Position numbers and translations under genes: made by a program. Positions 4,616-35,271 of a stretch of 64,000 bases of DNA are shown piece by piece; position 1 is the first letter of the stretch; every line of letters begins with the position of its first letter. The notes under the pieces are model-generated. The model saw nothing but the letters and a program-made list of their open reading frames with translations. It did not search any database and was not told the DNA's origin. Origin of the DNA: Olleya sediminilitoris (lineage in GTDB: Bacteria > Bacteroidota > Bacteroidia > Flavobacteriales > Flavobacteriaceae); the NCBI RefSeq assembly GCF_016785945.1, contig NZ_JAEMEF010000007.1, positions 1-64,000 of the forward strand. The letters are read 5' to 3'.

Positions 4616-4650
4616 ATATAACAAGTACATTTAACAATTCCCTACCCTAA
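4616..4650 (-). promoter_or_regulatory. Predicted ECF-sigma promoter, copy C
   Basis: On the minus strand TTAGGGTAGG (4650-4641) is followed after exactly 16 bases by TTGTTATAT (4624-4616). The same blocks and spacing occur at 34619-34653 and 35237-35271. It points at the ATG at 4517, about 100 bases downstream. Confidence 0.6.
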
Positions 4651-4669
4651 TACAAATTTATTTATTGTT

Positions 4670-4677
4670 TATCTTTG
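4670..4677 (+). promoter_or_regulatory. Probable folE promoter -7 box
   Basis: TATCTTTG matches the Bacteroidota -7 consensus TAnnTTTG and lies 37 bases before the folE ATG. No good TTG is seen at the -33 distance, so this is a partial match. Confidence 0.4.
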
Positions 4678-4714
4678 CAAATTATTAAAAACATCACTTA
4701 CAGACTTTATTTAA

Positions 4715-5395
4715 ATGAAGATTGAAAACAACATAGATGATCATGATGAAATTGGTGATAACCATATAAGTACAAATCATGATACACCCTTAAGAGCAGA
4801 TGCTTTTGAACTATCAGATACTGATAAAATCAACAGTATAAAAAAAGATGTGACCAGCATTATGCAAACTTTAGGGTTAGACCTAACAGACGATAGTCTA
4901 AAAGGGACACCTAATCGTGTGGCTAAAATGTTTGTAAACGAAATTTTTTCAGGTTTACATCCTGACAAAAAACCTAAAGCTTCGACATTTGACAATAAAT
5001 ACCAATATGGTGAAATGTTAGTCGAAAAAAACATTACTGTTTATTCTACTTGTGAGCACCACCTTTTACCTATAGTAGGTAAAGCTCATGTAGCGTACAT
5101 ATCTAATGGTACTGTTGTAGGTTTATCTAAAATGAATCGAATTGTAGATTATTATGCAAAACGACCACAAGTACAAGAGCGTCTAACCATTCAAATTGTT
5201 AAAGAATTGCAAGAAGCTTTAGGTACAGAAGATGTTGCTTGTATTGTTGACGCTAAACATTTATGTGTTAACTCTAGAGGTATCAGAGATATTGAAAGCA
5301 GCACAGTGACCTCAGAATTTGGAGGTCAATTTAAAAACAAAGAAACTAAACGCGAATTTTTAGATTACATTAAACTAGATACTAAATTTCACTAA
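4715..5395 (+). CDS. folE: GTP cyclohydrolase I
   Basis: Converts GTP to 7,8-dihydroneopterin triphosphate, the entry step to folate and, through QueD/QueE, to 7-deazaguanines. Zinc-site and core motifs are visible: CEHHLLP with Cys and His ligands near residue 112, VGLSKMNRIVDYYAKRPQVQE, and a late Cys in the segment containing KHLCVNSRG. The length of 226 aa is usual for the family. The first 30 residues are acidic and variable. It is followed after 6 bases by cysS, so the pair is probably one transcript. A Bacteroidota -7 box (TATCTTTG) lies upstream. The window also encodes a QueE, a later enzyme in the 7-deazaguanine branch. Confidence 0.97.
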   Translation: MKIENNIDDHDEIGDNHISTNHDTPLRADAFELSDTDKINSIKKDVTSIMQTLGLDLTDDSLKGTPNRVAKMFVNEIFSGLHPDKKPKASTFDNKYQYGEMLVEKNITVYSTCEHHLLPIVGKAHVAYISNGTVVGLSKMNRIVDYYAKRPQVQERLTIQIVKELQEALGTEDVACIVDAKHLCVNSRGIRDIESSTVTSEFGGQFKNKETKREFLDYIKLDTKFH

Positions 5396-5401
5396 TTACT
5401 A

Positions 5402-6886
5402 ATGGAACTTTACAAACATCAAAACATAAAAATATACAATTCGCTAACTGGCGAAAAAGACAATTTTAAACCTATTAACGAAGGTTATATTGGTATGTAT
5501 GTTTGCGGACCAACAGTATATAGCAATGTGCATTTAGGAAATGTTAGGACGTTTATGTCTTTTGACGTTATCTTTAGATATCTAAAACACTTAGGCTTTA
5601 AAGTACGTTACGTAAGAAACATAACAGATGCTGGACACCTAGAAAACGATGCAGATGTAGGTGAAGACAAAATCACAAAAAAGGCAAGATTAGAAGAAAT
5701 TGAACCTATGGAAGTCGTGCAACGCTACACCGTTGATTTCCATAATATATTAAATACCTTTAATTTTCTACCTCCAAGTATAGAGCCTACTGCAACTGGA
5801 CATATCATTGAACAAATAGAACTTATCAAAACTATAATAGATAATGGTTTTGCTTATGAAGTTAATGGATCAGTGTATTTTGATGTTCACAAATATGATG
5901 AAACTAATAATTACGGAGTACTAAGCAAGCGTAAACTTGAAGATTTAATCCATAACACAAGAGCTTTAGACGGACAATCAGACAAGAAAAACCCTCAAGA
6001 TTTTGCTTTATGGAAAAAAGCCGAACCAACACACATTATGCGTTGGCCATCTCCTTGGAGTGATGGATTTCCGGGTTGGCATTTAGAGTGTACAGCAATG
6101 AGTACTAAATATCTTGGAGATCAATTTGATATTCATGGTGGAGGAATGGACTTAAAATTCCCACATCACGAATGTGAAATCGCGCAAAACCAAGCAGCAT
6201 TAGGCAAATCTCCAGTAAACTATTGGATGCACGCCAACATGTTAGAACTTAATGGACAACGCATGTCAAAATCTACAGGAAACACTGTAAATCCAGACGA
6301 GCTTTTATCCGGAAACAACAAATTTTTCAGCAAAGCTTACACACCAAGTGTTATCAGGTTTTTTGTAGCACAATCGTCTTACAGAAGTATTTTAGACCTT
6401 ACTGACGATGGACTTTTAGCCAGCGAAAAAGGATATAACAGATTAATGGATGGTGTTAATCAATTAGATCATTTAAAAGCTTCAAAAACATCAACATTAG
6501 ACATTGCTACATGGAAGCAAAAATGTTATGACGCCATGAATGACGATTTCAATACACCTATTGTCATTGCCAATTTATTTGAAGCGGTTAAATACATCAA
6601 TCAGATAAAAGAAGGAAGCGCAACATTAAACGCAACAGACCTTGAGTATTTAAAAACAACAATCCACGCCTTTGTTTATGATATTTTAGGCTTAAAAAAT
6701 GACAAAACCGAAGCTGGAGCTGGTACAGACAAATTATCTGGAGCTGTACAATTATTAATAAAACTACGTCAAGAAGCCAGAGTCAATAAAGATTTTGCTT
6801 TATCAGATCAAATAAGAGATGAGCTAGCCGAAGCTGGAATACAACTTAAAGACGGTAAAGATGGCACAACTTTTACGACAAACTAA
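5402..6886 (+). CDS. cysS: Cysteine--tRNA ligase
   Basis: Class I aminoacyl-tRNA synthetase that charges tRNA-Cys in the cytoplasm. The HIGH-type signature appears as [13 protein letters not shown] (about residues 34-46, including the zinc-binding Cys), further zinc ligands lie in WHLECTAMS and HHECEIAQ, and the KMSKS-type loop is RMSKSTGN (about 288-295). The C-terminal DALR-like helical domain follows ([16 protein letters not shown]). The length of 494 aa is normal. It sits 6 bases after folE and is closed by a hairpin that starts 7 bases after its stop codon. Confidence 0.98.
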
Positions 6887-6893
6887 ATACATC

Positions 6894-6920
6894 AAATCCT
6901 CTCCAATGGAGAGGATTTTT
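6894..6920 (+). terminator. Intrinsic terminator between cysS and yidD
   Basis: An 11-base perfect stem (6894-6904 with 6908-6918) with a 3-base loop is followed by T residues. It begins 7 bases after the cysS stop and ends 6 bases before the yidD ATG. Confidence 0.75.
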
Positions 6921-6926
6921 TATACC

Positions 6927-7148
6927 ATGAAAAAAATAATATTAGCACCATTTTTATTTCTCATTAAGGTTTACCAAAACCTCATCTCTCCATTTACACC
7001 TGCAACTTGCAGATACCAACCAACTTGCTCACACTACACCAAAGAAGCCCTTCAAAAACACGGATTATTAAAAGGACTAAAACTTAGTATTAAACGCATT
7101 TTTAGTTGTCATCCTTGGGGAGGAAGCGGTTACGACCCAGTACCATAA
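6927..7148 (+). CDS. yidD: Membrane protein insertion efficiency factor YidD
   Basis: Small amphipathic membrane-associated protein thought to assist YidC-dependent insertion. The family signature is complete: [12 protein letters not shown] near residue 16, then [14 protein letters not shown] with its two Cys, and [14 protein letters not shown] at the C-terminus with the third Cys. I chose the ATG at 6927 (73 aa) because it gives the family's usual start ([17 protein letters not shown]). The open frame extends upstream to 6861, but that part overlaps cysS and runs through the terminator hairpin. The ATG lies only 6 bases after the hairpin, so either yidD is read by read-through or the hairpin affects its expression. 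Confidence 0.93.
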
Positions 7149-7167
7149 ATACTTTTATTAATAATTT

Positions 7168-7250
7168 GGGCGTTTTAACAGGCTGTCCGCTATATCTTTT
7201 TTAAGAAAAATAAAAAAGGATGCCACTTCCATCCTTAACGCACTTGCGCC
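7168..7250 (+). repeat. Dispersed flavobacterial intergenic repeat, copy 1
   Basis: Starts GGGCGTT, then contains CAGGCTGTCCGCTATATC and AAAAAGGATGCCACTTCC, and ends CCTTAACGC. The ends are inverted relative to each other (GCGTT / TTAACGC), and the middle can fold (ATCTTTTTTA against TAAAAAAGGAT). The same ordered blocks occur on the minus strand at 9013-9122. It sits alone in the 200-base gap between yidD and lgt. Confidence 0.7.
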
Positions 7251-7348
7251 AAAAATTAGCATAAACATTAATTTATTGCTAAACCTTTGTCAAGTAATTC
7301 TAATTAATAAAGCATAAATACTATATTTACAACTCCAAAAATCAAACT

Positions 7349-8278
7349 ATGTATATACTTAAATTCGATTGGAATCCTTTAACAGGAATCGATATAATAG
7401 GAAATTTTAAAATTCATTTTTATAGCCTAATGTGGATCGCAGCATTTGTGATTGGACACGCTATAATGAAACGTATTTTTAAACGCGAAAAAGTAAATCT
7501 AGAATTTTTAGATCCATTATTTATTTACACCGTTTTAGCTACCATGCTTGGTGCACGATTAGGACATGTAATATTTTATCAGCCAGAATTAATTGGCCAA
7601 GATCCTTTAAGTGTTATTTTGCCATTTAAATTTGTAGGTGGTTTTGAGTTTCAAGGGTTTCAAGGACTAGCTAGTCATGGAGCAGCAATTGGTATAATAA
7701 TAGGTATGTATTTATACCGTAAAAAATACCAATACAAATCTATGATGTGGATTTTAGATCGTATTGTAATACCTGTAGCCTCTGGAGCTGTTTTTATAAG
7801 AATTGGAAACTTTATAAACTCTGAAATTATTGGTAAAATAACAGACTCTGACTTTGGTGTTAGATTTGTGCAAGAGTACTACAACAAATATGAAATTGTT
7901 CAAAAAACAGGAATTAAGGATGTTAAAAAAGCCTACGCTTCTATTACTGACAATCCAAATATGGCTTCTTTACTAGAAGCTGTTCCGTTTAGACATCCTG
8001 CACAATTGTATGAGTCGTTTAGTTATATTTTTGTGTTTTTAATCCTTTGGTTTGTTTACACAAAGACGACTAAAAAAGATCAAACAGGATTTTTATTTGG
8101 TTTATTTTTAATACTACTTTGGAGTGTTAGATTTTTTGTCGAGTTTGTTAAAGAACCACAAGGTGACGAGTTTATTAACTGGTTTGGTCTTAACACAGGA
8201 CAATGGTTAAGTGTTCCGTTTATATTAATTGGATTGTACTTTATGTTTATTTTTAAACCAAAAACGACTACTAAATAA
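7349..8278 (+). CDS. lgt: Prolipoprotein diacylglyceryl transferase
   Basis: Inner-membrane enzyme that transfers diacylglycerol from phosphatidylglycerol to the lipobox Cys of prolipoproteins. Seven or so hydrophobic segments are visible. The conserved HG motif appears as ASHGAAIG (about residue 110), the signature as RIGNFINSEIIGK (about 151-163), and the late conserved region as FRHPAQLYES (about 212-221). The length of 309 aa is typical for Bacteroidota. Its stop codon overlaps the start of the next gene (TAATG). That next gene encodes a lipoprotein and therefore a substrate of this enzyme. The upstream gap holds the dispersed repeat. Confidence 0.97.
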   Translation: MYILKFDWNPLTGIDIIGNFKIHFYSLMWIAAFVIGHAIMKRIFKREKVNLEFLDPLFIYTVLATMLGARLGHVIFYQPELIGQDPLSVILPFKFVGGFEFQGFQGLASHGAAIGIIIGMYLYRKKYQYKSMMWILDRIVIPVASGAVFIRIGNFINSEIIGKITDSDFGVRFVQEYYNKYEIVQKTGIKDVKKAYASITDNPNMASLLEAVPFRHPAQLYESFSYIFVFLILWFVYTKTTKKDQTGFLFGLFLILLWSVRFFVEFVKEPQGDEFINWFGLNTGQWLSVPFILIGLYFMFIFKPKTTTK

Positions 8279-8781
8279 TGAAATTATATACCAAAATTTT
8301 AACTCTAGCCTTATTTTGTAGCCTAGCTTTTGTTTTTAATGCTTGTAAAGATGATAAAACAGTTGATCCTATAAAAGTTGATTTTAAAAAAGAAGGTGAA
8401 TTAACCATTTTTAAAGGCACTACAGACACTATTGTAAAGGTATTTAATATTGAGATTGCTAAAAGTGATTACGAAATACAAACAGGGTTAATGTATCGTG
8501 ATAACATGAAGGATGACCAAGGTATGTTATTTGTGTTTCCTGAGGTTAGAGAACGCTCTTTTTACATGAAAAACACACGTATTGCTTTAGACTTAATATT
8601 TTTTGATCATAATAAACGTATTGTTAGTTTTCAGGAAAACGCAAAACCAATGGATGAAACTAGCTTACCGTCTAACACTCCTGCTCAATTTGTACTAGAA
8701 CTTAACGCTGGAATGGCTCAAAAACTTTTACTTGATGTTGGAGATAAAATGGATTACTTTGAGTATTTATTAGAAAAATAA
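8278..8781 (+). CDS. DUF192-family surface lipoprotein
   Basis: The signal peptide ends in a lipobox FNAC (Cys near residue 23), followed by KDDK. This resembles the flavobacterial lipoprotein surface-export signal (acidic residues right after the Cys). The rest is a DUF192 domain: YEIQTGLMYRDNM, GMLFVFPEVRERSFYMKNT, LDLIFFD, VLELNAGMAQKL. The fold is known but its function is not established. It starts inside the lgt stop codon (TAATG), so translation is probably coupled to lgt. A strong terminator follows 17 bases after the stop. Confidence 0.9.
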   Translation: MKLYTKILTLALFCSLAFVFNACKDDKTVDPIKVDFKKEGELTIFKGTTDTIVKVFNIEIAKSDYEIQTGLMYRDNMKDDQGMLFVFPEVRERSFYMKNTRIALDLIFFDHNKRIVSFQENAKPMDETSLPSNTPAQFVLELNAGMAQKLLLDVGDKMDYFEYLLEK

Positions 8782-8798
8782 AAGGCTTATTTTATAAT

Positions 8799-8835
8799 AA
8801 AAGGCTAATTGTAATTGTACAATTAGCCTTTTTTT
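8799..8835 (+). terminator. Terminator after the lgt operon
   Basis: A 15-base perfect stem (8799-8813 with 8818 onward) and a 4-base loop are followed by a run of seven T. Confidence 0.9.
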
Positions 8836-9012
8836 ATTGAAAAATTTGACAACTACCTTACTTACACAACGTAATTTTTAATCCAACCTGACTGGATTTA
8901 TATACCTTACTAAAATCAAACTTAAACCGTTTAAATACTATTTTAAGAGGACTAATTGTTTTACCATAACAAAGAGAAAACAACCCTTTTTAGAGACGTA
9001 AATTTACGGATA

Positions 9013-9122
9013 GGTTGCGTTAAGGATTGATGTGGAAATCCTTTTTGTGAGGCACGAGCAAAAAGATTGTAACGGAAAGCCTGACGCACTTTTGCAACTA
9101 AAAGCAAAAGTGGGTAACGCCT
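9013..9122 (-). repeat. Dispersed flavobacterial intergenic repeat, copy 2
   Basis: Read on the minus strand it starts GGCGTTACCC, then contains GTCAGGCTTTCCGTTACAATC, AAAAAGGATTTCCAC, and ends AATCCTTAACGC. These are the same blocks in the same order as at 7168-7250, with two extra hairpins: CACTTTTGC against GCAAAAGTG, and AATC-TTTTTG against CAAAAAGGATT. It fills most of the 366-base gap between the DUF192 gene and secDF. Nothing else is seen in 8836-9012. Confidence 0.7.
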
Positions 9123-9145
9123 AAAAAACAAATTACTGTAAACAT

Positions 9146-9180
9146 AAAAAAGCCTTTCTAAATTAATAGAAAGGCTTTTT
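9146..9180 (-). terminator. secDF terminator
   Basis: The stem AAAAAGCCTTTCTA pairs with TAGAAAGGCTTTTT around a 6-base loop, 22 bases after the secDF stop. Confidence 0.9.
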
Positions 9181-9201
9181 AATATTAAGACTAGTGTTTG
9201 A

Positions 9202-12200
9202 CTACTTAACTACTGTTTCGTCCACAACTACTTCTTTCTTTTTTAATGCGTCTGCTGCATTTCCTTTTTTAACAAAGTCATACATGATTGGTGTTGCAAT
9301 AAATAATGATGAGTAGGTACCTACTATTACACCAACTATTAATGCGAACATGAATCCTCTAATAGACTCTCCTCCAAAAATGAAGATTGCTAATAATACC
9401 ACTAAGGTTGTTAAAGATGTATTTAACGTACGACTTAATGTACTACTTAATGAGCTGTCTATTACTTTATCAAATTCCCAACCTGTGTACTCGTTAAAAA
9501 ACTCACGAATTCTATCAAATACTACAACGGTGTCATTTAATGAGTATCCAATTACTGTTAGGATTGCTGCAATAAATGCTTGATCAATTTCCATTGAAAA
9601 TGGCATGAACTTGTATGTAATAGAGAATACACCTAATACGATAATTACATCATGGAATACTGCTGCTACTGCACCAAGGGAGAATTGCCATCTTTTAAAA
9701 CGGAAAAGAATATAAAGGAATACAACTACTAATGATCCTAAAACTGCCCAGAAAGAGGCTTGTTTAATATCGTCTGCAATTGATGGACTTACTTTGTATT
9801 GATCCATAATACCAATTTGCTTGTCTGCTTTTGATAAGTCTTTAAAATCTTCAAAAGACACACCTTTAAGGTAAGGTTGTAATGCTGTGTATAGCTTACT
9901 TGTTACTTCTTCATCAACCTCGTTAGCTGTTTCGTTAATTTTATATTTAGTTGAGATTTTTAAATTATTATCGTCTCCAACTGTTTTTACTGTTGCACTA
10001 CCAAATACGTCTTGAGAAGCTAAAATACCTTCAATCTCCACTGCGCTTACTGGCTCTGCAAATCTAACTTGCGTTGTACGTCCTCCAACAAAATCAATAC
10101 CTTGATCTAAACCATTTGTAAATAATGATCCTAAACTTAATACTAATGCTACTGCTGATATGATGTAAGCAACTTTACGTTTTTTAAGAAACTCGATATT
10201 GATGTTTCTAAATAAGTTTTTAGTTAAACCTGTTGAGAAATCTAATTGACCACCTCTGTTTGAATACCAGTCTACTAATAATCTTGTAATAAAGATTGCT
10301 GTAAATAGTGATGTACCAATACCTATTAATAATGTTGTTGCAAAACCTTTAATTGGTCCTGTACCAAATACAAATAATATTAATGCAGTTAATCCTGTTG
10401 TAATGTTGGCATCTAAAATTGATGATAATGCATTACTAAATCCGTCTTGAATAGCAGATTTTTGATCTTTACCCTTGGATAGTTCTTCTCTGATACGCTC
10501 AAATATAAGAACGTTTGCATCCACAGACATACCAATAGTTAATACTATACCTGCAATACCAGGAAGTGTTAATACTGCTCCAATACCTGATAATACACCA
10601 AAGATTAATAAGATGTTGAATAACATTGCTATGTCAGCAAATAATCCACCTTTACCATAGTAAAATACCATCCAGATTAATACTAATGCTAATGCAATAC
10701 CAAATGACATTGTACCACTATCAATTGCTTCTTGACCTAAAGATGGTCCAACAATACTACTTTGAATAATCTCTGCACGAGCTGGTAATTTACCTGCACG
10801 TAAAACGTTAGCTAAATCTGTTGCTTCACTTAAGCTAAAGCTTCCAGAAATTTCAGTACTTCCTCCTGCAATTGGTCCAGTAGATGATGATGGTGCAGAG
10901 TATACAGTATTATCTAAAACTACAGCTATTTGACCTTGCGTTTTAAAAGCCTCACCTGTCATTTTTTCCCAGATTTTAGCTCCTTTACTATTCATTTGCA
11001 TACTAACTACAACCTTATTTGCTTGGTTATAAGATTGACGTGCATCTGTTACAACCGCTCCATTTAATGGTGGCTCATTGTCTCTGTTTCCTTTTAGGAC
11101 AAAAAGATCTACTAACTCACTATTTTCTGTTGGTTTACCAAAAACAAATTTAGTATGTTTTAATTCTGATGGTAATAATGCCTTTACTTCTGGCATAGAT
11201 AAGTAACTTAATACTTGCTCTCTGTCTGCAATATTAAATTGTGCTAAAGTTGCTCCAAAACCAGGACCAGCCATTAGGTCTAATAATGGGTTAACCTCGT
11301 TTACAGTTTCGTTTTCTTCACCTGTAAGTGCTGCAATAGCTTTTTCTTCTTCAGTTAATTCTTTAGCTTCAGTAGTTTCTTCTGAAGTTGTTTTAGCTTC
11401 TAATTTAGTTTTAAGTAAGTCATTAGCTTGAATTAAAAACTGATTGAATTGATCTGCTTTTAAACCTTCCCAAAACTCTAATTGTGCTGTTTGAGTAATA
11501 AGATCTGTAGCACGTGCTACGTCTTTAACACCTGGTAATTCTAATAATACACGTCCAGAGTTACCTAAACGTTGGATGTTTGGAGAGGTTACACCAAACT
11601 CATCAATACGTTTACGTAATACCTCAAAAGCAGAAACGATTGACTCGTCTACCTTTGTTTCTAATACACGTTTAGTATCACTATCAGACATATTTAAGTC
11701 TATCTCTCCAACTAAAGATCTGTTAGCAAAGATATCTGGAGAGGCTAATTTTTTATCTCCTTTGATAGCGTCAAAAGCTACATAAAAATCTTCTAAATAC
11801 GTGTTTTGACTGTTTTTTTGAATTTCGTCTGCATCATCTAAAGCTTTTCTGAAAGTTGGATTTTTACTATCGTTAGCTAATCCAATTAAAAGATCTTTTA
11901 CAGATATTTGAAGTATTGCTTCTAAACCACCTTTAAGGTCAAGACCTAACTTCATTGAGTTTTGTTTTACATCCTCATAAGTGTTACCTAAAAAAACACT
12001 TTCTTTTGATGTTGCTAACGAGTCTAAATAACTTGTCGCATAATCGTTAACTTTTGCTGTACGATCTGATGCTGAAGCTTCAATTTTGCTTTCAGCCAAT
12101 TGTGCTGCATTGTTTTCTATCGCATTATTTTTAAATGTGAAAGACAATTGGTAAATACTTACCAATCCAAACAATACTGCAAATAGTTTTACTAATCCTT

Positions 12201-12210
12201 TATTTTGCAT
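9202..12210 (-). CDS. secDF: Protein translocase subunit SecDF (fused SecD and SecF)
   Basis: RND-type inner-membrane protein that uses the proton gradient to complete Sec export. SecD and SecF are fused (1,002 aa), as is common in Bacteroidota. The SecD part starts with a membrane segment, then LGLDLKGGLEAILQI (about residues 87-101) and the periplasmic P1 region (IDEFGVTSPNIQRLG, LLELPGVKDVARA). Six membrane segments follow, with GMSVDANVLIFERIREEL. The SecF part begins near INIEFLKKRKVAY, with GIDFVGGRTTQVRF and the matching GYSLNDTVVVFDRIREF. An insert rich in Glu and Thr (about 270-300) is lineage-specific. It ends in a strong terminator. Confidence 0.97.
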   Translation of the reverse strand: MQNKGLVKLFAVLFGLVSIYQLSFTFKNNAIENNAAQLAESKIEASASDRTAKVNDYATSYLDSLATSKESVFLGNTYEDVKQNSMKLGLDLKGGLEAILQISVKDLLIGLANDSKNPTFRKALDDADEIQKNSQNTYLEDFYVAFDAIKGDKKLASPDIFANRSLVGEIDLNMSDSDTKRVLETKVDESIVSAFEVLRKRIDEFGVTSPNIQRLGNSGRVLLELPGVKDVARATDLITQTAQLEFWEGLKADQFNQFLIQANDLLKTKLEAKTTSEETTEAKELTEEEKAIAALTGEENETVNEVNPLLDLMAGPGFGATLAQFNIADREQVLSYLSMPEVKALLPSELKHTKFVFGKPTENSELVDLFVLKGNRDNEPPLNGAVVTDARQSYNQANKVVVSMQMNSKGAKIWEKMTGEAFKTQGQIAVVLDNTVYSAPSSSTGPIAGGSTEISGSFSLSEATDLANVLRAGKLPARAEIIQSSIVGPSLGQEAIDSGTMSFGIALALVLIWMVFYYGKGGLFADIAMLFNILLIFGVLSGIGAVLTLPGIAGIVLTIGMSVDANVLIFERIREELSKGKDQKSAIQDGFSNALSSILDANITTGLTALILFVFGTGPIKGFATTLLIGIGTSLFTAIFITRLLVDWYSNRGGQLDFSTGLTKNLFRNINIEFLKKRKVAYIISAVALVLSLGSLFTNGLDQGIDFVGGRTTQVRFAEPVSAVEIEGILASQDVFGSATVKTVGDDNNLKISTKYKINETANEVDEEVTSKLYTALQPYLKGVSFEDFKDLSKADKQIGIMDQYKVSPSIADDIKQASFWAVLGSLVVVFLYILFRFKRWQFSLGAVAAVFHDVIIVLGVFSITYKFMPFSMEIDQAFIAAILTVIGYSLNDTVVVFDRIREFFNEYTGWEFDKVIDSSLSSTLSRTLNTSLTTLVVLLAIFIFGGESIRGFMFALIVGVIVGTYSSLFIATPIMYDFVKKGNAADALKKKEVVVDETVVK

Positions 12211-12240
12211 GGTTTTGTTTATTTAATGTCAAATTTTAAA

Positions 12241-12265
12241 TTACGTTAGCATATAATTAACGTAA
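12241..12265. promoter_or_regulatory. Inverted repeat upstream of secDF
   Basis: TTACGTTA and TAACGTAA form a perfect 8-base inverted repeat with a 9-base spacer, 31-55 bases before the secDF ATG. It could be an operator or a weak 5' hairpin. Nothing here identifies a binding protein. Confidence 0.4.
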
Positions 12266-13830: not shown

Positions 13831-13835
13831 TAAAC

Positions 13836-27003: not shown

Positions 27004-27004
27004 T

Positions 27005-27373: not shown

Positions 27374-27381
27374 AAAACATA

Positions 27382-28221
27382 ATGAAAAAAACAATTGCTA
27401 AAGTACTTCCTAAAATAATTGGTAACAGTTTAAATGCTATAAGCTACATAGCTCCAAAATATGCAAGCGTAAAAGCTTTAGATATATTTGCAACCCCTAA
27501 AAAAGGACGTTTAAATCCAAAACAAAAAGCATTTCTAAACACTGCAACCCAATCCTCTTTAGATTATAACGATTTAAAAATACAAACCTATAACTGGAAA
27601 GGTACTAAAGAAACTATTTTATTAGCCCATGGATGGGAAAGTAATAGCTTTAGATGGAAGCAAATTATAACAGATTTACAAGCTCAAGATTATAATATTG
27701 TAACTTTAGATGGTCCTGCACATGGACAATCTTCTGGAAAACAATTTAATGCTATTTTGTATTCAGAGTTTATAAATGTAGTAGCCAATCATTATAATCC
27801 AAATGTTATTGTAGGACATTCGGTTGGAGGTATGTCTTCAATATTTTTTCAACATAAATATCAAAATAAAAGTCTAGAAAAAATGGTGTTACTTGGTGCT
27901 CCTTCAGAGTTTACCAAAGTATTTAAAAACTACGTTAATATGCTAGGTTATAATAAACGTATAGAAAATGGTTTAAACCAAATTGTACTAGAACGTTTCA
28001 ATTATAAACCTTCACATTTTTCGGCTGCCAAGTTTTCAAAAGAAATTAATTTACAAGGATTAATAATTCACGATACACAAGATAAGATTATTAAATATGA
28101 TGAAGCTAAGTTAATTTCATCTAACTTTAAAAATTCAACATTAATAACAACTGAAGGTTTTGGTCATGGATTACGCGATAAAAGTGTAAATCAAGCTGTG
28201 GTAAACTTTATAAACGCCTAA
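27382..28221 (+). CDS. Alpha/beta hydrolase
   Basis: Serine hydrolase of the alpha/beta fold (279 aa). The oxyanion region is LLAHGWESNSFRW (about residue 81), the nucleophile elbow GHSVGGMSS (about 153-161), the acid probably in IIHDTQDKIIKYDEA, and the His in GFGHGLRDKS near the end. The substrate cannot be read from the sequence. The ATG at 27382 is chosen; the frame stays open to 27310, but that part overlaps the cupin gene. It is part of the compact plus-strand operon. Confidence 0.88.
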   Translation: MKKTIAKVLPKIIGNSLNAISYIAPKYASVKALDIFATPKKGRLNPKQKAFLNTATQSSLDYNDLKIQTYNWKGTKETILLAHGWESNSFRWKQIITDLQAQDYNIVTLDGPAHGQSSGKQFNAILYSEFINVVANHYNPNVIVGHSVGGMSSIFFQHKYQNKSLEKMVLLGAPSEFTKVFKNYVNMLGYNKRIENGLNQIVLERFNYKPSHFSAAKFSKEINLQGLIIHDTQDKIIKYDEAKLISSNFKNSTLITTEGFGHGLRDKSVNQAVVNFINA

Positions 28222-28225
28222 TATT

Positions 28226-29116
28226 TTGGAAGAAAAACTAACAAGACTTAATAAATACCTCAGCGAAGCTGGTTATTGTTCTCGTCGTGAAGGCGATAAA
28301 TTAATTGATGCTGGACGTGTCACAATAAATGGTGTTGTACCAGAAATGGGCACTAAAGTAAGTCCAAATGATGTGGTTGCAGTTGATGGAGAAATTATTA
28401 CAAAATCTAACCAAAAACCGGTTTACTTAGCCTTTAACAAACCCGTTGGAATTGTTTGTACTACAGATACTAATGTAGAAAAAGACAACATTATAGATTT
28501 TATAAATTATCCTAAACGTATTTTTCCAATTGGAAGATTAGATAAATTAAGTGATGGATTAATCTTTATGACAGATGATGGTGACATTGTAAACAAAATA
28601 TTACGTGCCAGTAACAATCATGATAAAGAGTATATTGTGACGGTTGACAAACCAATATCGCAAACGTTTATTAAAAGAATGGCTGGAGGTATATATCTTG
28701 AAGATTTGGATAGAACCACAAAAAAATGTGTAGTAAAAAAAATAGACTCGCATACCTTTAGCATTATTTTAACCCAAGGTCTAAACAGACAAATTAGACG
28801 TATGTGCGAATATCTAACCTACGAAGTGACCTCACTTAAACGTGTTAGAATTATGAATATAAAGCTTGATGTTCCTGTTGGAGAGTATCGTGAGTTTACT
28901 GAAAAAGAATTAAAAACATTACACTTACTTTTAGAAGACTCGACTAAAGTACACGAAACTAAAACTAACAACGAAAACTCTTCTAGGATTAGCAAAGCTA
29001 GTAAAGATAGACAATCCAAAAATAAACCTGAAGCTGAACAATCTAAAAGAGAAGATACAAGTCGATCAAGATCTAATCAAGATAGACCTATAAGAAACAG
29101 ACGTAAAAAAGATTAA
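28226..29116 (+). CDS. rluF: 23S rRNA pseudouridine synthase, RluF-like
   Basis: RsuA/RluF-type enzyme converting a uridine to pseudouridine in 23S rRNA. It has an N-terminal S4 domain (LTRLNKYLSEAGYCSRREGD), then LAFNKPVGIVCTTD, the catalytic Asp in FPIGRLDKLSDGLIFMT (about residue 112), and QGLNRQIRRMCEYL. The last 50 residues are a basic, low-complexity tail (lysine, arginine, serine). The start is TTG at 28226: a stop lies at 28211, no ATG lies between, and the S4 domain begins at residue 5. The family assignment is firm; the exact target U is inferred. Confidence 0.88.
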   Translation: MEEKLTRLNKYLSEAGYCSRREGDKLIDAGRVTINGVVPEMGTKVSPNDVVAVDGEIITKSNQKPVYLAFNKPVGIVCTTDTNVEKDNIIDFINYPKRIFPIGRLDKLSDGLIFMTDDGDIVNKILRASNNHDKEYIVTVDKPISQTFIKRMAGGIYLEDLDRTTKKCVVKKIDSHTFSIILTQGLNRQIRRMCEYLTYEVTSLKRVRIMNIKLDVPVGEYREFTEKELKTLHLLLEDSTKVHETKTNNENSSRISKASKDRQSKNKPEAEQSKREDTSRSRSNQDRPIRNRRKKD

Positions 29117-29118
29117 TT

Positions 29119-29541
29119 ATGAGTAGTATATCTCCTTTTCATTTAGCAATTCCTGTACATAACCTTCAAGAGTGTCGTATTTTTTATAGAGATATTTTAA
29201 ACTGTGAAGAAGGACGTAGTAGTGACCATTGGGTTGACTTTAACTTTTTTGGGCATCAGTTAGTTATTCATTTTAAAGAAAAAACAGATGAAGACACTTC
29301 GGGTAATGAAGTAGATGGAAAACAAGTGCCTGTACCACATTTTGGAGTGGTTATAGATTGGGACGTTTTTACAACTTTTGAAAACGATTTAAAAACCAAA
29401 AACATCAACTTTATTATTGAGCCTTATGTTAGATTTGAAGGTCTAGTGGGAGAACAAAAAACCATGTTTTTTAAAGACCCTTCTGGTAATGCTTTAGAGT
29501 TTAAAACCTTTAGGGATCAATCGCAGTTATTTGCTAAATAA
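29119..29541 (+). CDS. VOC-family (glyoxalase/dioxygenase fold) protein
   Basis: A two-module vicinal-oxygen-chelate protein of 140 aa. Candidate metal ligands are His in FHLAIPVHNLQ (residue 8), His in VPHFGVVIDW (about 75) and Glu in NALEFKTF (about 129). The closing MFFKDPSGNALEFK is typical of the family. The substrate is unknown. It starts 2 bases after the rluF-like stop and ends the seven-gene run. No terminator is evident in the 19-base gap to the convergent gene. Confidence 0.87.
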   Translation: MSSISPFHLAIPVHNLQECRIFYRDILNCEEGRSSDHWVDFNFFGHQLVIHFKEKTDEDTSGNEVDGKQVPVPHFGVVIDWDVFTTFENDLKTKNINFIIEPYVRFEGLVGEQKTMFFKDPSGNALEFKTFRDQSQLFAK

Positions 29542-29560
29542 AGTACTTTAAAATTAATTA

Positions 29561-30442
29561 CTAATTATCAAATGTTTGAGTAGAATTAACTACAATCAAA
29601 TCTTTATTTTGTAATTTAAGTGTGGTTAAATAGTTTAATGATGGACAACATCGTCCATCATCTTCTGCATAGCAAGAAGACTTACCATATATTAAATTAT
29701 TTTCTATTTTATCTAATTGAATAAAACCTTGACATTCAGTAATTTCCCAATTAGATTTAGTGGTTAAAAATGAAAAACTAGCATCTTTTTGTTGTAAAAA
29801 AACAAATAAATCTATCCACCATACATTACCTCCACCTCCACCACCTTCTGTATTAACAGGAATAATCATATCCTCTAACCCATCATTATTTAAATCTCCG
29901 TAGTACAAAAACTTTTTATCTCTAACTCTAGGTAGTGTAACAGCCATTTGAAAAAAACCATATTTCTCATCGTCATTTTCTGGTTTTGCATAATATATTA
30001 AAGAGCGTAAACTATCACTTTTAGTATCCACTAAAATGGTTTCTTTACCATAGTTTACATTATAGTAATTAAGAATATGATTACTAACATTAGTGTCTAG
30101 AAAAAATTTTTGTTTAGTTAAAAATCCATCAAACACATATACAGTATCATTCGCTTTTTGAATGCCAACCCATTCTCCTTTAATTATCTTGTTATTATCT
30201 TCAATGTCTTGAAAAACACCTGTTCGATATATAACAGAAACCGTTTGATTTAAATCAAATTTTCCTAATATTTTATCTTTTGGAGATTGTCTATAATTTA
30301 GACCAGATTCTGCTGAAACATAATATTTTTCAGCTTTTTTTTTAGGAAAACTTTTTAATGAGCTTGTTTCTAAAACTTCATCTTTACAACTCACACTTGT
30401 TATTAAAAGATAAACAAGTGTGAGTACGCTAAAATATTTCAT
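29561..30442 (-). CDS. Lipoprotein with SH3-like domain
   Basis: The lipobox SVSC (Cys19) is followed by KDE, resembling a flavobacterial surface-export signal. Residues 40-110 look like a bacterial SH3 domain (YYVSAESGLNYRQSPKDKIL, then GEWVGIQKANDTVYVFDGFL). A later segment (YYGDLNNDGLEDMIIPV) resembles an FG-GAP or EF-hand-like calcium loop, followed by a Gly run (TEGGGGGGNVWW). The function is unknown. Convergent with the VOC gene; it lies 37 bases downstream of folD on the same strand. Confidence 0.8.
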   Translation of the reverse strand: MKYFSVLTLVYLLITSVSCKDEVLETSSLKSFPKKKAEKYYVSAESGLNYRQSPKDKILGKFDLNQTVSVIYRTGVFQDIEDNNKIIKGEWVGIQKANDTVYVFDGFLTKQKFFLDTNVSNHILNYYNVNYGKETILVDTKSDSLRSLIYYAKPENDDEKYGFFQMAVTLPRVRDKKFLYYGDLNNDGLEDMIIPVNTEGGGGGGNVWWIDLFVFLQQKDASFSFLTTKSNWEITECQGFIQLDKIENNLIYGKSSCYAEDDGRCCPSLNYLTTLKLQNKDLIVVNSTQTFDN

Positions 30443-30479
30443 TGTAAAGAATATTTGATCTGTTATTTATAAATAACAA

Positions 30480-31361
30480 TTATCTATTATTGTGTCTTTC
30501 TCTAGCCAATAGTGTATTTTTAAGCAGCATTGCTATTGTCATTGGTCCTACTCCACCAGGTACAGGTGTGATGTGACTTACTTTTTTACTAACGTTTTCA
30601 AAGTCAACATCTCCAGTAATACGGTAACCTCTTTCTTTGGTCTCATCTGGTACACGTGTTATACCAACATCTATAATTACAGCATCATCTTTTACCATTT
30701 CTGCTTTTAAGAAATTAGGCACACCTAATGCCGAAATGATAATATCTGCTTGACTTGTTATTTGCGTTATATTTTTGGTGTGACTGTGTGTTAAAGTCAC
30801 TGTACTGTTACCAGGAAAACCTTTACGTCCCATTAAAATACTCATTGGTCTTCCTACAATATGAGAACGTCCAATCACGACAGTATGCTTACCTTTAGTA
30901 TCAACTTGGTATCTATCTAACAACTCTAAAATACCAAAAGGAGTTGCAGGTATAAAAGTAGACATGTCTAGTGCCATTTTACCAAAATTCATTGGATGAA
31001 AACCATCCACATCTTTATCAGGATGTACAGCCATTAATACCTTTTGGGTATCTATTTGTTCTGGTAATGGTAATTGGATAATAAAACCGTCAATATCACT
31101 ATTATTATTAAGTTCTTCAATTTTATCTAACAATTCAACCTCACTTGTTGTGTTAGATAATCTTACCATTGTAGACTCAAAACCTACACGTTCACAAGCT
31201 CTAACTTTACTTCCTACGTAAGTTAAACTTGCTCCATCATTACCGACAATAACTGCTGCTAAATGAGGAACTTTCTCATTGTTAGCTTTCATTTTATCAA
31301 CTTCGGCTTTGATTTCGTTTTTAATATCGTTGCTGACTTTTTTACCGTCTAAAATTGTCAT
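30480..31361 (-). CDS. folD: Bifunctional methylenetetrahydrofolate dehydrogenase / cyclohydrolase
   Basis: Interconverts 5,10-methylene- and 10-formyl-tetrahydrofolate. Signatures: the catalytic Lys in TYVGSKVRACERVGF (about residue 54), DGFIIQLPLPEQID, VIGRSHIVGRPMS of the Rossmann part, and PGGVGPMTIAMLLKNT near the C-terminus. The length of 293 aa is normal. It lies between ffh and the SH3-like lipoprotein, all on the minus strand; the ffh terminator lies 47 bases before its ATG. Confidence 0.97.
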   Translation of the reverse strand: MTILDGKKVSNDIKNEIKAEVDKMKANNEKVPHLAAVIVGNDGASLTYVGSKVRACERVGFESTMVRLSNTTSEVELLDKIEELNNNSDIDGFIIQLPLPEQIDTQKVLMAVHPDKDVDGFHPMNFGKMALDMSTFIPATPFGILELLDRYQVDTKGKHTVVIGRSHIVGRPMSILMGRKGFPGNSTVTLTHSHTKNITQITSQADIIISALGVPNFLKAEMVKDDAVIIDVGITRVPDETKERGYRITGDVDFENVSKKVSHITPVPGGVGPMTIAMLLKNTLLARERHNNR

Positions 31362-31395
31362 TTTTTTAGTTGTGTGTTAGTTAATTATATAAAAT

Positions 31396-31423
31396 AAAAA
31401 AACATGAGTTACCTCATGTTTTT
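31396..31423 (-). terminator. ffh terminator overlapping the stop codon
   Basis: AACATGAG and CTCATGTT pair around a 4-base loop, and T runs follow on the minus strand. The upstream arm encodes the last ffh codons (K-N-M-R) and the TAA is in the loop. Confidence 0.8.
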
Positions 31424-32737
31424 CATTGCATTCATCATTGCTTTTCCTTTTCCTCCTTGCATCATTTTCATCATCTTGCTCATCTGATTAAATTGCTTAA
31501 GTAATTGGTTTACTTCTTGAACCGAAGTTCCAGATCCCTTTCCAATTCGTTTTTTTCGACTGGCATCGATAATTGAAGGGTTAGTTCTTTCTTTAATAGT
31601 CATGGAGTGGATAATGGCTTCAATACCTTTAAAAGCATCGTCATCAATATCTATATCTTTCATCATTTTACCTGCTCCAGGAATCATCCCAATCAGGTCT
31701 TTCATGTTACCCATTTTTTTGATTTGCTGGATTTGCTTTAAGAAATCGTCAAAACCAAATTGGTTTTTAGCAATCTTCTTCTGAAGTTTTCTAGCTTCAG
31801 CTTCATCAAATTGTTCTTGAGCTCTTTCAACAAGTGATACAACATCTCCCATTCCAAGAATACGATCTGCCATACGTGAAGGATAAAAGACGTCAATAGC
31901 TTCCATCTTTTCACCTGTACCAATAAATTTAATTGGTTTATTTACTACAGATTTAATTGATATTGCTGCTCCACCACGTGTATCTCCATCTAACTTAGTT
32001 AAGATAACACCATCAAAGTTTAAGACATCATTAAAGGCTTTTGCTGTATTTACAGCATCTTGACCTGTCATTGAGTCTACCACAAATAATGTCTCTTGTG
32101 GTTGTATAGCTTTATGGATGTTAGAGATTTCTGTCATCATGGCTTCATCAACAGCTAAACGTCCAGCTGTATCTATAATCACCACATTATGTCCATTTTG
32201 CTTTGCATGGGCAATACCTGCTTGCGCTATAGCAACTGGATCTGTATTACCTTTATCACTGTAAACATCTACTTTTATTTGATCTCCTACTACGTGTAAT
32301 TGATCAACAGCTGCTGGACGATACACATCACAGGCAACTAATAAAGGTTTTTTAGTTTTTTTGTTTTTTAAGAAATTAGCAAGCTTACCAGAAAATGTAG
32401 TTTTACCAGATCCTTGTAAACCTGACATTAATATAATGGTTGGTGTACCAGACATATTGATGCCTTCAACATCTCCACCCATTAATTGTGTTAGCTCATC
32501 TTTTACAATCTTAACCATTAACTGTCCTGGTTGTAACGTTGTTAATACGTTTTGACCAAGCGCTTTTTCTTTAACGGTATTAGTAAAATTTTTGGCTATT
32601 TTAAAGTTAACATCGGCATCTAAAAGTGCTCTACGTACTTCTTTTAGGGTTTCGGCAACGTTTACTTCTGTAATACTACCATGACCTTTAAGTACATGTA
32701 ACGCTTTATCTAACTTTTCGCTTAAATTATTAAACAT
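31409..32737 (-). CDS. ffh: Signal recognition particle protein Ffh (SRP54)
   Basis: GTPase that binds signal sequences with 4.5S RNA and targets ribosomes to the membrane. It has an N domain, then G domain motifs GLQGSGKTTFSGKLA (about residue 103), DTAGRLAVDE, and ILTKLDGDTRGGAA, and a methionine-rich M domain (MGNMKDLIGMIPGAGKMMKD, MMKMMQGGKGKAMMNAM). I chose the ATG at 32737 (442 aa, start MFNNLSEKLDKAL). The open frame extends to 32839 but adds an unrelated hydrophobic stretch. A TATTTTTG -7 box at 32761-32768 leaves a leader of about 17 bases. Confidence 0.97.
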   Translation of the reverse strand: MFNNLSEKLDKALHVLKGHGSITEVNVAETLKEVRRALLDADVNFKIAKNFTNTVKEKALGQNVLTTLQPGQLMVKIVKDELTQLMGGDVEGINMSGTPTIILMSGLQGSGKTTFSGKLANFLKNKKTKKPLLVACDVYRPAAVDQLHVVGDQIKVDVYSDKGNTDPVAIAQAGIAHAKQNGHNVVIIDTAGRLAVDEAMMTEISNIHKAIQPQETLFVVDSMTGQDAVNTAKAFNDVLNFDGVILTKLDGDTRGGAAISIKSVVNKPIKFIGTGEKMEAIDVFYPSRMADRILGMGDVVSLVERAQEQFDEAEARKLQKKIAKNQFGFDDFLKQIQQIKKMGNMKDLIGMIPGAGKMMKDIDIDDDAFKGIEAIIHSMTIKERTNPSIIDASRKKRIGKGSGTSVQEVNQLLKQFNQMSKMMKMMQGGKGKAMMNAMKNMR

Positions 32738-32760
32738 AAATTTTCTGATTTTAAGAAGCA

Positions 32761-32768
32761 CAAAAATA
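32761..32768 (-). promoter_or_regulatory. ffh promoter -7 box
   Basis: TATTTTTG on the minus strand matches TAnnTTTG. At the expected 19-base distance there is TTCG, close to the TTTG of the -33 element. Confidence 0.5.
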
Positions 32769-32815
32769 GGAATTTGAAGCGTATTTACGAAGTTTAGATT
32801 ATAAATAATTACATA

Positions 32816-32842
32816 AAAAAAGGCTGCTAAAATTAGCAACCC
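32816..32842 (-). terminator. Terminator after the large surface lipoprotein
   Basis: On the minus strand GGTTGCT pairs with AGCAGCC (one G-U pair) and a seven-T run follows. It lies 28 bases after the stop codon. Confidence 0.8.
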
Positions 32843-32869
32843 TTAATCAACTTAACTAAAACTAAATTT

Positions 32870-34561
32870 TTAATCGCAATCTTTATCTAAAACAACTTCA
32901 ATATTGCTATTTGTTACTTCATGTAATATTATTTGATTTGCAGTACACTCTACCACATAATAGTTTCCATCTAAAATCTGTACATTTCCTCCTGAAATAT
33001 CTGATAAAGTAACCACAACTTGTCCTCCATCTTGAGAAGTAGACCAGTTACCTGTGTAGTTTTCGTTATCTGAATTTATAATCATGTTTTGATCATTTTC
33101 AAAATTTATATTGAAAATGTTAAAACTAGAATCACCTTCATAATTTGAAATTACCCATTTACAATCTTGTAAAATACCGTCAACATCACCTTCAGTACAA
33201 GATGAAGCACAATTTTGTACAATTAAATTCACAGTAAATATTTGAAATTCGTTTGGATTATTTACATGCTCTACTCTTACATAAATCACTTCAGTACTTG
33301 ACATATTAGTGTATGGAGAAGCTAAAGGATTTACACTAGCATTAGCATCTGCTTCTGTATTAAAATAATAAATATTTAGATCACTTGATGTACAGTTTGG
33401 ATAAAGCTCGTCTAATACAATTGTAGTTTGAAGGTCCAAACTTCCGTCGTCATCACAAACTGTAAATGTTATATCTTCAAAACAACTGTAAGCGAAATTA
33501 ACATCACAATTTTGCTCTAAAACAACTAAGGTTTGGGTATTCATATTATATAATTCAAATAGATTTGTTTGACTACAATTGTCTATGATCCAAGATCCTG
33601 ATAAATCTTCCCAATTAGTATCTAAATCTAATATAAATTGATTATCATCATTTTGACTAACCGTCCAAACACCATCATGTACTGAGTTACCATAAAGGTT
33701 ATATGTTACAAAACTATAGTCTACATTAAATTGAATGTAATAACTATTTAATGGATCTGTTGTATTATACACTGGTAAATTCCATATACATTCTTTTAAG
33801 GCTAATTCTATTGCTTGATCTGTACAATCAGTATCATAAAAATTAAAGTCATCGTCTTCATCACAATCATCTTCAGCTTCAGCTATAGCAATTTCTAACT
33901 CTTGATTACTATTAACTTCTATAGTGTTGCCATCTGCTAAAATTAAAGTTACAGGAAAATTTAAACTAGTTATTACTGATGCGTTTAAGCTTTCTAAAAA
34001 CAGGTATAAAGCCTCGTCATTATCTACGGTTACTGTTTCGCTAACTTGGAAATCTGTATCGTAAATAGAAAATGCTATTGGATACTGGATGTCTATACAT
34101 TCAATATCATCATCAACTTCATTTTCATCATTACAAGTATTAATAAGTGCTAATAATTCTGATTCAGTATTAATAGTTATTGTTGAATAATCATTAAGTG
34201 TTAACGTTATAGGATAGCTAAACTGAATAGCCTCTTGACCCATTGTAAAGGTTTGAAACATTGTTTCTAGTTCTGCGTATTCTTCTATACTCTGAATTGT
34301 TATTGTAACACCATTTGTTGTAATTGTTACAGGTAAGACCACCTCTACACAGTTAGCATAATCTATGATATTGTCTATCGATCCATCATTTAAAGCAACC
34401 ATAGACATGAGGTTGGCTGTGTCAGAATTAGCTTCAATAACATCCTCTTGCTCAGGGTTTACAATATCAGAAACTTCGTCTTGACAGGACAACACTAAGG
34501 TTAAAAACAATATTGGTAAGTAAAAATAAAATTTGAACGGTTTAAAATTAAAGGTCTTCAT
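32870..34561 (-). CDS. Large repeat-containing surface lipoprotein next to ECF-sigma/FecR/TonB receptor
   Basis: The lipobox VLSC (Cys26) is followed by QDE, a flavobacterial surface-export type signal. Residues 70-245 hold four imperfect repeats of about 40-45 residues, each with a Y/F/L-P-[VI]-x-[IFL] strand, an ITI/IEV strand and an acidic helix (for example FPVTLILADGNTIEVNSNQE). Two similar lipocalin-like blocks follow (about 265-365 and 455-563, starting ECIWNLPVYN and DCKWVISNYEG). Between them is a roughly 90-residue module (CDDDG, YYFNTEADANASVNPL, VIYVRVE) also present several times in the giant protein at 1-3998. I chose the ATG at 34561 (563 aa); the frame is open to 34627. It is divergent from the sigma gene and carries the shared two-block promoter. 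The function is unknown; ligand or partner of the TonB receptor is inferred. Confidence 0.85.
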   Translation of the reverse strand: MKTFNFKPFKFYFYLPILFLTLVLSCQDEVSDIVNPEQEDVIEANSDTANLMSMVALNDGSIDNIIDYANCVEVVLPVTITTNGVTITIQSIEEYAELETMFQTFTMGQEAIQFSYPITLTLNDYSTITINTESELLALINTCNDENEVDDDIECIDIQYPIAFSIYDTDFQVSETVTVDNDEALYLFLESLNASVITSLNFPVTLILADGNTIEVNSNQELEIAIAEAEDDCDEDDDFNFYDTDCTDQAIELALKECIWNLPVYNTTDPLNSYYIQFNVDYSFVTYNLYGNSVHDGVWTVSQNDDNQFILDLDTNWEDLSGSWIIDNCSQTNLFELYNMNTQTLVVLEQNCDVNFAYSCFEDITFTVCDDDGSLDLQTTIVLDELYPNCTSSDLNIYYFNTEADANASVNPLASPYTNMSSTEVIYVRVEHVNNPNEFQIFTVNLIVQNCASSCTEGDVDGILQDCKWVISNYEGDSSFNIFNINFENDQNMIINSDNENYTGNWSTSQDGGQVVVTLSDISGGNVQILDGNYYVVECTANQIILHEVTNSNIEVVLDKDCD

Positions 34562-34618
34562 TTTGATTTTTTTTTGGTTATTTCTTCTTTTCATAGCAAT
34601 ACTTATAACTTGCTGAAT

Positions 34619-34653
34619 ATAAAACAACTCATGTACAAATAATCCTACCCTAA
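34619..34653 (-). promoter_or_regulatory. Predicted ECF-sigma promoter, copy A
   Basis: On the minus strand TTAGGGTAGG (34653-34644), 16 bases, TTGTTTTAT (34627-34619). It points at the lipoprotein ATG at 34561, about 58 bases downstream. Identical in design to 4616-4650 and 35237-35271. Confidence 0.65.
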
Positions 34654-34703
34654 TTAAAAAAAAATAGTTCTATTATTGTAAATTAATTATCTAAAGTTAT
34701 TTA

Positions 34704-35219
34704 ATGCCTAAACAGTTACATCAAAATATTTGTGATAAATCTTTATTTGAATCGTTTTTTAAAACGCATGCTAAAAACTTACATGACTTTTTGTTTTATA
34801 AATTTGGAACGCATTTAAATCCTGAAGATAAAGCACAAGAAGCTTTTGTTAAATTATGGGAAAACTGTAAAAAAGTACCACCTAATAAAGCTAAAAGTTA
34901 TGTGTTTACAATTGCAAATAATTTAATGTTAAACGAAGTAGCGCATCAAAAGGTTGTACTAAAACATCAAAAAACAATAACCACACACCACACAAATTTG
35001 TCTCCTGAATTTTTATTAGAAGAAAAACAATACAGACAAAAACTAGAACAAGCTATTGCAAATTTAACCGAAGCACAACGTGTGGCATTTTTATTAAATC
35101 GAGTTGAAGGTAAAAGATTTAAAGAAATTGCTACCTTACTAGATATTAGCACAAAAGCAGTAGAAAAGCGTATTTATGGTGCCTTGAAAAAATTACGTCA
35201 GGAAATTGATGAATTATAA
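34704..35219 (+). CDS. ECF-type RNA polymerase sigma factor
   Basis: FecI-like sigma-70 family protein of 171 aa. Region 2 is seen in LHDFLFYKFGTHLNPEDKAQEAFVKLWEN (about 27-55, in pieces) and the following SYVFTIANNLMLNE. Region 4 is a helix-turn-helix in LTEAQRVAFLLNRVEGKRF, then EIATLLDISTKAVEKRIYGA. Next to FecR and a TonB receptor with a signalling domain, it should form a cell-surface-signalling unit in which receptor occupancy frees the sigma factor. Its own upstream region lacks the two-block motif found before fecR and the lipoprotein, so it may be expressed from a basal promoter. Confidence 0.93.
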   Translation: MPKQLHQNICDKSLFESFFKTHAKNLHDFLFYKFGTHLNPEDKAQEAFVKLWENCKKVPPNKAKSYVFTIANNLMLNEVAHQKVVLKHQKTITTHHTNLSPEFLLEEKQYRQKLEQAIANLTEAQRVAFLLNRVEGKRFKEIATLLDISTKAVEKRIYGALKKLRQEIDEL

Positions 35220-35236
35220 ATAAAAAATTTATTTCT

Positions 35237-35271
35237 TTAGGGTAGGATTTTTCGCTACTAACTTGTTTTAT
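35237..35271 (+). promoter_or_regulatory. Predicted ECF-sigma promoter, copy B
   Basis: TTAGGGTAGG (35237-35246), 16 bases, TTGTTTTAT (35263-35271). It lies in the 67-base gap between the sigma gene and fecR and ends 15 bases before the fecR ATG. Confidence 0.65.

Follow-up and report, generated by a model that had tools for sequence, protein, structure and literature searches.

A two-block promoter motif, very probably read by a neighbouring ECF sigma factor, before FecR/TonB receptor, lipoprotein and giant secreted protein genes of Olleya sediminilitoris

Bacteroidota possess numerous extracytoplasmic function (ECF) sigma factors associated with FecR and TonB receptors. The closest described system is FecI/FecR/FecA of Escherichia coli, with relatives for iron carriers in Pseudomonas, which combines an ECF sigma factor, a FecR-type regulator and a TonB-dependent outer-membrane receptor. 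In the accessible part of the source consulted, the Fec sigma factor drives the receptor promoter and fecIR is not autoregulated (PMC9249621). The locus described here has the same three components and very probably belongs to this already known type of system. It lies in positions 1 to 64,000 of contig NZ_JAEMEF010000007.1 (assembly GCF_016785945.1) of Olleya sediminilitoris, family Flavobacteriaceae; this whole stretch of 64,000 nt is called the window below. A two-block motif, very probably a promoter type read by the neighbouring sigma factor, precedes the fecR-receptor genes, a divergent lipoprotein gene and a distant operon encoding a giant secreted protein. In Fec, fecR is co-transcribed with the sigma gene, whereas here it stands in the receptor operon behind the putative promoter of the sigma factor itself. 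The unit here usually includes a divergent lipoprotein gene, and the additional putative targets are genes for giant secreted surface proteins, not transport genes.

Three other circuits of Bacteroidota resemble the locus in part, as far as the accessible portions of the respective papers describe them. The SM6 promoters of Flavobacterium psychrophilum are likewise putative Flavobacteriaceae ECF promoters before genes related to the type IX secretion system (T9SS), but their -10 region is described with a CGT box, and the genes behind them encode T9SS machinery (PMC9723704), whereas GGTAGGA-N16-TGTTWTAT stands here before genes of a TonB receptor and of T9SS substrates. In the main text of that paper GGTAGG has no occurrence, figure logos and supplements being outside this scope. 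PorY/PorX/SigP of Porphyromonas gingivalis also links an ECF sigma factor to type IX secretion; there a two-component system controls T9SS component genes (PMC4800418), whereas at the present locus T9SS substrates would be under the control of a FecR/TonB sensor. Das1/Dma1 of Bacteroides thetaiotaomicron is an envelope circuit of ECF and anti-sigma factor tied to outer-membrane vesicles (PMC12596196). A paper cited there describes Dma, by its title, as one protein that spans both membranes, in contrast to the separate FecR and TonB receptor of the present locus. The part of the open-access literature that was searched, which excludes the main ECF reclassification paper, its motif collection and supplements, yielded no GGTAGG-type ECF promoter, and nothing on how exclusive its sites are, on the lipoprotein partner, on giant T9SS outputs or on the three promoter codes described below.

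The features of the circuit in the window, named circuit A, are as follows.

34704..35219, plus strand: ECF sigma factor (sigma A), 171 amino acids (aa); Pfam Sigma70_r2 and Sigma70_r4_2 above cut-off.
35237..35271, plus strand: putative sigma-A promoter of fecR; exact motif, block 2 ending 15 nt before the ATG.
35287..36186, plus strand: FecR-type membrane sigma regulator, 299 aa; Pfam FecR (PF04773) 67.2 bits at a cut-off of 24, FecR_C 39.5 bits.
36179..38452, plus strand: TonB-dependent receptor with a short signalling-like N-terminal domain, 757 aa; Pfam Plug 39.1 bits.
34619..34653, minus strand: putative sigma-A promoter of the divergent lipoprotein gene; exact motif.
32870..34561, minus strand: putative surface lipoprotein, 563 aa; a conserved N-terminal domain, then lipocalin-like and adhesin-repeat-like parts.
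4616..4650, minus strand: putative sigma-A promoter of the p157-giant 1 operon; exact motif.
4044..4517, minus strand: putative secreted protein p157, 157 aa, first in the operon; matches in 39 of 199 family genomes, its own included.
1..3998, minus strand: giant secreted protein 1 (giant 1), with CUB, PKD, P-domain and repeats by Pfam; incomplete, as the contig ends at window base 1.

The 35-base motif occurs in three exact copies, at 4616-4650 (-), 34619-34653 (-) and 35237-35271 (+), with a spacer of 16 in all of them, just as a first, sequence-only reading of the window had described. That reading took the blocks for a sigma-factor promoter, a view that the evidence below supports at the level of sequence, since the motif tracks the presence of the sigma factor and changes with it in paralogous circuits. 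The extent it gave to the motif is exact for the window but too wide for relatives, in which the initial TTAG and the opening T of block 2 are variable and the core GGTAGGA-N16-TGTTWTAT is kept. With up to three mismatches the window contains no matches beyond the three copies, and dinucleotide-shuffled versions of it gave 0.08 matches on average, none of 100 reaching three.

In the assembly (3,416,957 bases) there are four exact copies, one copy at two mismatches and three at three mismatches, compared with three matches at up to three mismatches for a reversed-pattern control. The whole-genome scan, which the sequence-only reading had proposed, gave no exact match before an unrelated gene. 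The fourth exact copy, C36:2904-2938 (-), lies 166 nt upstream of a second giant CUB/PKD protein (giant 2) and adds a target on another contig, C36, to the three originally listed. The inexact copies were rejected as promoters of this circuit. C35:80378 lies within a 432-aa open reading frame (ORF), C1:449076 within a 410-aa ORF of the opposite strand, and C12:26092 overlaps the 3' end of the neighbouring gene and points into it. The two-mismatch site C35:117034 (-) was rejected as a fifth target; it fits exactly the pattern of the paralogous circuit B, and it sits in the B locus.

The sites are equally confined in the genus. The original pattern, at up to two mismatches, is present in 10/10 genus genomes examined. 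The strict core GGTAGG-N17-TGTTWTAT gives 29 sites in the same ten genomes and none with the reversed control; according to tblastn maps 28 of these precede the lipoprotein, fecR-receptor, p157-giant 1 or giant 2 genes, and the remaining one (G001) stands before giant 2, as judged by eye. Sites of giant 1 in the genus often read GGTAGGG or GGTAGGT instead of GGTAGGA.

Conservation at orthologous loci, a further check that had been proposed, extends through the family. It was assessed in 80 named loci chosen by sigma similarity alone, of which two end before fecR. Before fecR, at least 13 of the 14 core positions are present in 77 of the remaining 78 loci and all 14 in 62, the exception being Kordia jejudonensis with 10/14; 71 of the 77 sites end 14-17 nt upstream of the ATG. 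On the divergent side at least 12/14 core positions are found in 80/80 loci and all 14 in 45, scores equalled by at most 1/50 shuffles of the divergent side per locus. A relative of the lipoprotein was found on this side in 68/80 loci. At the variable position of block 2, 62/77 fecR sites have A and 50/80 divergent sites have T.

A second, overlapping set comprised the window and 48 of 60 fetched regions with a sigma factor 55-100% identical, the 12 regions without such a sigma being excluded. Part of the 48 regions was picked with the motif list in view, and the 80-locus set is the less biased one. Here the motif precedes fecR in 49/49 loci (14-19 of 19 positions), at 15-17 nt from the ATG in 46, and columns aligned on the fecR ATG alone, with no use of the motif, reveal both blocks. 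Three loci (L150, L155, L164) have 712-895 nt with a 218-264-aa ORF between the sigma gene and fecR, and the motif is still found 16-17 nt before fecR.

Presence of the motif follows presence of the sigma factor. The strict core with A after GGTAGG occurs in 66/77 family genomes having a sigma-A relative among the sigma matches listed (E<=1e-60, a cut-off chosen after the table had been inspected) and in 2/122 without (199 genomes in total; Fisher 2.6e-38, genomes being treated as independent). Sites of the reversed control occur in 5/199 genomes. The p157 gene gives a similar picture. Among 39 of 41 matches examined, one per genome, at least 12/14 core positions stand upstream of p157 in 20/28 genomes with sigma A (at least 60% identical, own genome included) versus 0/10 without, with Fisher 9e-5, or 4e-4 when G187 is counted as lacking the site. 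G127, with a sigma 57% identical and no motif, was placed in neither group, and three of the ten genomes without sigma A (G051, G088, G132) contain more distant sigma relatives.

Away from the sigma and p157 loci, a sample of sites in other genera comprised 29 strict-core loci (L386-L414) and 20 loci of a looser pattern (L177-L196). By eye, 17/29 strict-core sites precede a lipoprotein or secreted protein, one of the downstream genes being a giant 2 relative. The looser list includes a giant 2 relative (L193), a p157-giant 1 pair (L181) and several lipoproteins, as well as several sites with no clear downstream gene. The single strict-core sites before assorted lipoproteins and secreted proteins hint at lineage-specific regulon members in these genera.

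Paralogous circuits provide the strongest support for the assignment of the promoter to its sigma factor. Circuit B of the same genome, with lipoprotein, sigma B, fecR and receptor genes, is located at C35:115.9-121.3 kb (L010 7876-13289), and its promoter pattern, GTAGGGTAA-N12-TTGTCTTA, stands before fecR, before the lipoprotein gene and before a small ORF beside the sigma gene. The B pattern is present in 7/7 genus genomes with sigma B and 0/3 without, with no match in the reversed control; each of the seven genomes has three sites at the B locus, and G001 and G009 have one extra each. In circuit C, a third lipoprotein/sigma/fecR/receptor set with its blocks at corresponding places, TCAGGR-N15-TTGTTRTAT is present in 2/2 genus genomes with sigma C and 0/8 without, again with no match in the reversed control, and each of its five sites in the genus is at the C locus. 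The region-4 helix of the sigma factors differs in parallel: it is mostly ISTKAVEKRIYGAL in A, ISQKAVEKRMS-AL in B and VT-KVVEYRIYSAF in C, the differences falling at sigma A positions 149, 152, 155, 157, 158 and 161 (at least 0.89 uniform per group), and at 150 as judged by eye. The promoter pattern changes with the sigma paralogue and its region-4 helix, and among the sequence data this covariation supports most strongly that the neighbouring ECF sigma factor reads these promoters.

As a separate observation, both extra B sites (L426, L432) are upstream of the same secreted protein, which carries a HEIGH motif and which we take to be a thermolysin-like peptidase. The sequence-only reading had overlooked the paralogous circuits with other codes, and also that no copy of the motif is directed at the sigma gene itself. 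With no type-A site in the window pointing at this gene, its autoregulation was rejected. A TAnnTTTG box of the primary sigma factor is found exactly upstream of the sigma gene in 1/49 loci (shuffled mean 2.5); the looser TAnnTTTR is found in 24/49 loci, a count that has no shuffle control and from which nothing firm follows.

Several observations weigh against the assignment of all these sites to the neighbouring sigma factor. The divergent side has no lipoprotein relative found in 12/80 named loci. A strict-core site is missing in 11/77 sigma-A genomes, in seven of which the best sigma E value is between 1e-60 and 1e-65, the range where paralogues score too, and shared descent of genomes means that the Fisher values overstate significance. 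No clear motif precedes p157 in 8/28 sigma-A genomes, and the counted site of G187 has a poor first block. Among the sampled strict-core sites of other genera, 4/29 fall inside an ORF, and those beyond these and the 17 have a downstream gene of another kind or none that is clear. The B and C loci themselves supplied the B and C patterns, and the comparison tests the absence of these patterns elsewhere only. Outside the genus, the sigma-B relatives L178 and L190 carry block 2 TTGTTWTAT before fecR; in 2/9 C loci AAGGA replaces TCAGG before fecR, the lipoprotein side having TCAGG in 9/9; and the blocks are of various kinds in six loci that have other sigma relatives (L186, L212-L216). Family models give borderline scores for two proteins. 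Sigma A, which has ECF regions 2 and 4 only, reaches 105 bits with TIGR02985 (Bacteroidetes ECF family 1), below the curated cut-off of 126.4, and receptor residues 26-87 reach 23.4 bits with FecR_C, just under the cut-off of 24.4. Set against these points, the sequences themselves show promoter-like sites that are exclusive to the target units, are conserved and covary with the sigma factor, and the neighbouring ECF sigma factor very probably reads the GGTAGGA-N16-TGTTWTAT promoter.

Blocks at a fixed spacing might be a pair of half-sites, and the motif would then be the binding site of a transcription factor encoded elsewhere and no sigma promoter. The two blocks are, however, neither repeats nor inverted repeats of one another, the fecR ATG at mostly 14-17 nt leaves little space for a separate promoter, and the promoter type shifts with the sigma paralogue and its region-4 helix, which makes this explanation highly improbable. 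It is also very unlikely that the motif is a true ECF promoter of which the giant 1 and giant 2 copies are read mainly by another sigma factor with overlapping preference. The GGTAGGG and GGTAGGT variants at giant 1 in the genus and the 8/28 sigma-A genomes with no clear p157 site would fit such a division. However, block 2 at the giant sites of the genus is of type A (TGTTWTA) and not of type B (TTGTCTTA), 0 of 23 genus B-pattern sites lie at giant genes, the site is kept in 0/10 genomes that have p157 without sigma A, and the genome contains just two sigma factors of this kind at E<=1e-12.

A different alternative concerns the signal and is compatible with the promoter reading. The circuit could be an ordinary regulator of nutrient or iron uptake, with the surface proteins as accessory nutrient binders. 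FecR/TonB systems have been described mostly for iron carriers, as far as the accessible part of one source goes (PMC9249621), and the weak lipocalin-like matches of the lipoprotein model are to a fold able to bind small ligands. On the other hand, none of the promoter copies in this genome is immediately followed by a gene for a permease or an enzyme, the targets being the sensor operon and surface proteins. In relatives, the giants that are complete are T9SS substrates and carry CUB, PKD, P-domain or choice-of-anchor-L domains. An uptake regulator is possible and rather doubtful. More speculatively, the receptor might sense the exported surface layer of the cell itself, with the lipoprotein or the giants as ligand or presenter; the circuit would then monitor coat assembly or contact with neighbours and adjust it, and several module copies with different codes would be insulated surface programmes running side by side. 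The lipoprotein gene is back to back with the sigma gene in most A loci and in the examined B and C loci. We consider this idea unlikely as it stands.

With high probability the locus is a surface-signalling circuit of the FecI/FecR/TonB-transducer kind; its outputs would be the sensor itself and surface proteins, the giants among them. We infer from the known families that a signal at the outer-membrane receptor (36179-38452) would pass to FecR (35287-36186) and from there to the ECF sigma factor (34704-35219), which would direct RNA polymerase to GGTAGGA-N16-TGTTWTAT promoters and start transcription from the sites. The four target units in this genome would be fecR-receptor, the divergent lipoprotein gene, the p157-giant 1 operon and, on the other contig, giant 2. 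The circuit would in this way couple its own sensor with a few secreted surface proteins; two or more of these are giants, which in relatives are T9SS substrates. As fecR itself is a putative target, the circuit would contain feedback, which would be negative if FecR is an anti-sigma factor and positive if FecR is needed for sigma activity.

The fecR and receptor genes overlap and therefore probably form one operon. No STN model matched the receptor in the Pfam scan at E<=0.001. The start of the lipoprotein was taken as 34561; an earlier TTG start at 34627 is also possible by the ORF list. Neither the 563-aa lipoprotein nor p157 has a Pfam or NCBIfam family match. An alignment of 35 sequences shows the N-terminal part of the lipoprotein to be conserved and the C-terminal part to be variable. 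Its AlphaFold2 model has a mean pLDDT of 83.2 and a pTM of 0.44, and gave no Foldseek match at E<=0.001; small lipocalin-like proteins have a probability of 1.0 but E of about 0.01, and the alignment with adhesin or Ig-like chains is loose. Residues 291-449 of the lipoprotein and giant 1 have common repeats (64-143 aa at 27-36% identity, best blastp E 1.4e-8), and two promoter-bearing units therefore have a building block in common.

Both giants of this genome are truncated by contig ends, and the T9SS sorting domain was scored in relatives only. Full-length giant 1 of the relative L125 has 2404 aa and full-length giant 2 of the relative L132 has 2165 aa, each with a C-terminal T9SS type B sorting domain (TIGR04131, 119.6 and 122.5 bits, respectively, cut-off 35). 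The designation of the giant as a T9SS-type surface protein in the sequence-only reading thus holds for full-length relatives, while the C-terminus of the window copy is absent from the contig. A stretch of 127 bases is identical between giant 1 (window 560-686) and giant 2 (L009 1-127, the start of C36). The number 127 is a common assembler k-mer, so that the contigs probably break within a repeat common to both giant genes, and the assignment of window bases 1-686 may be wrong.

The p157 gene and the sigma gene are on one contig, 26-41 kb apart, in at least 16 genomes, and in the mapped loci ffh stays beside the lipoprotein side and folE beside p157. A prophage at 49-63 kb of the window was considered and rejected; the ten proteins scanned there are SecY, ribosomal proteins and EF-G.

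The circuit looks like a real, largely unstudied control of the cell surface, with its wiring kept across dozens of related bacteria. It supplies an exact promoter code, a target list in ten genus genomes and three paralogous codes that vary with residues of the recognition helix, and the specificity of this group of sigma factors is therefore open to direct testing. Surface signalling would moreover be connected here with giant secreted T9SS proteins and not with uptake, which suggests a regulatory role of such receptors in building the cell surface.

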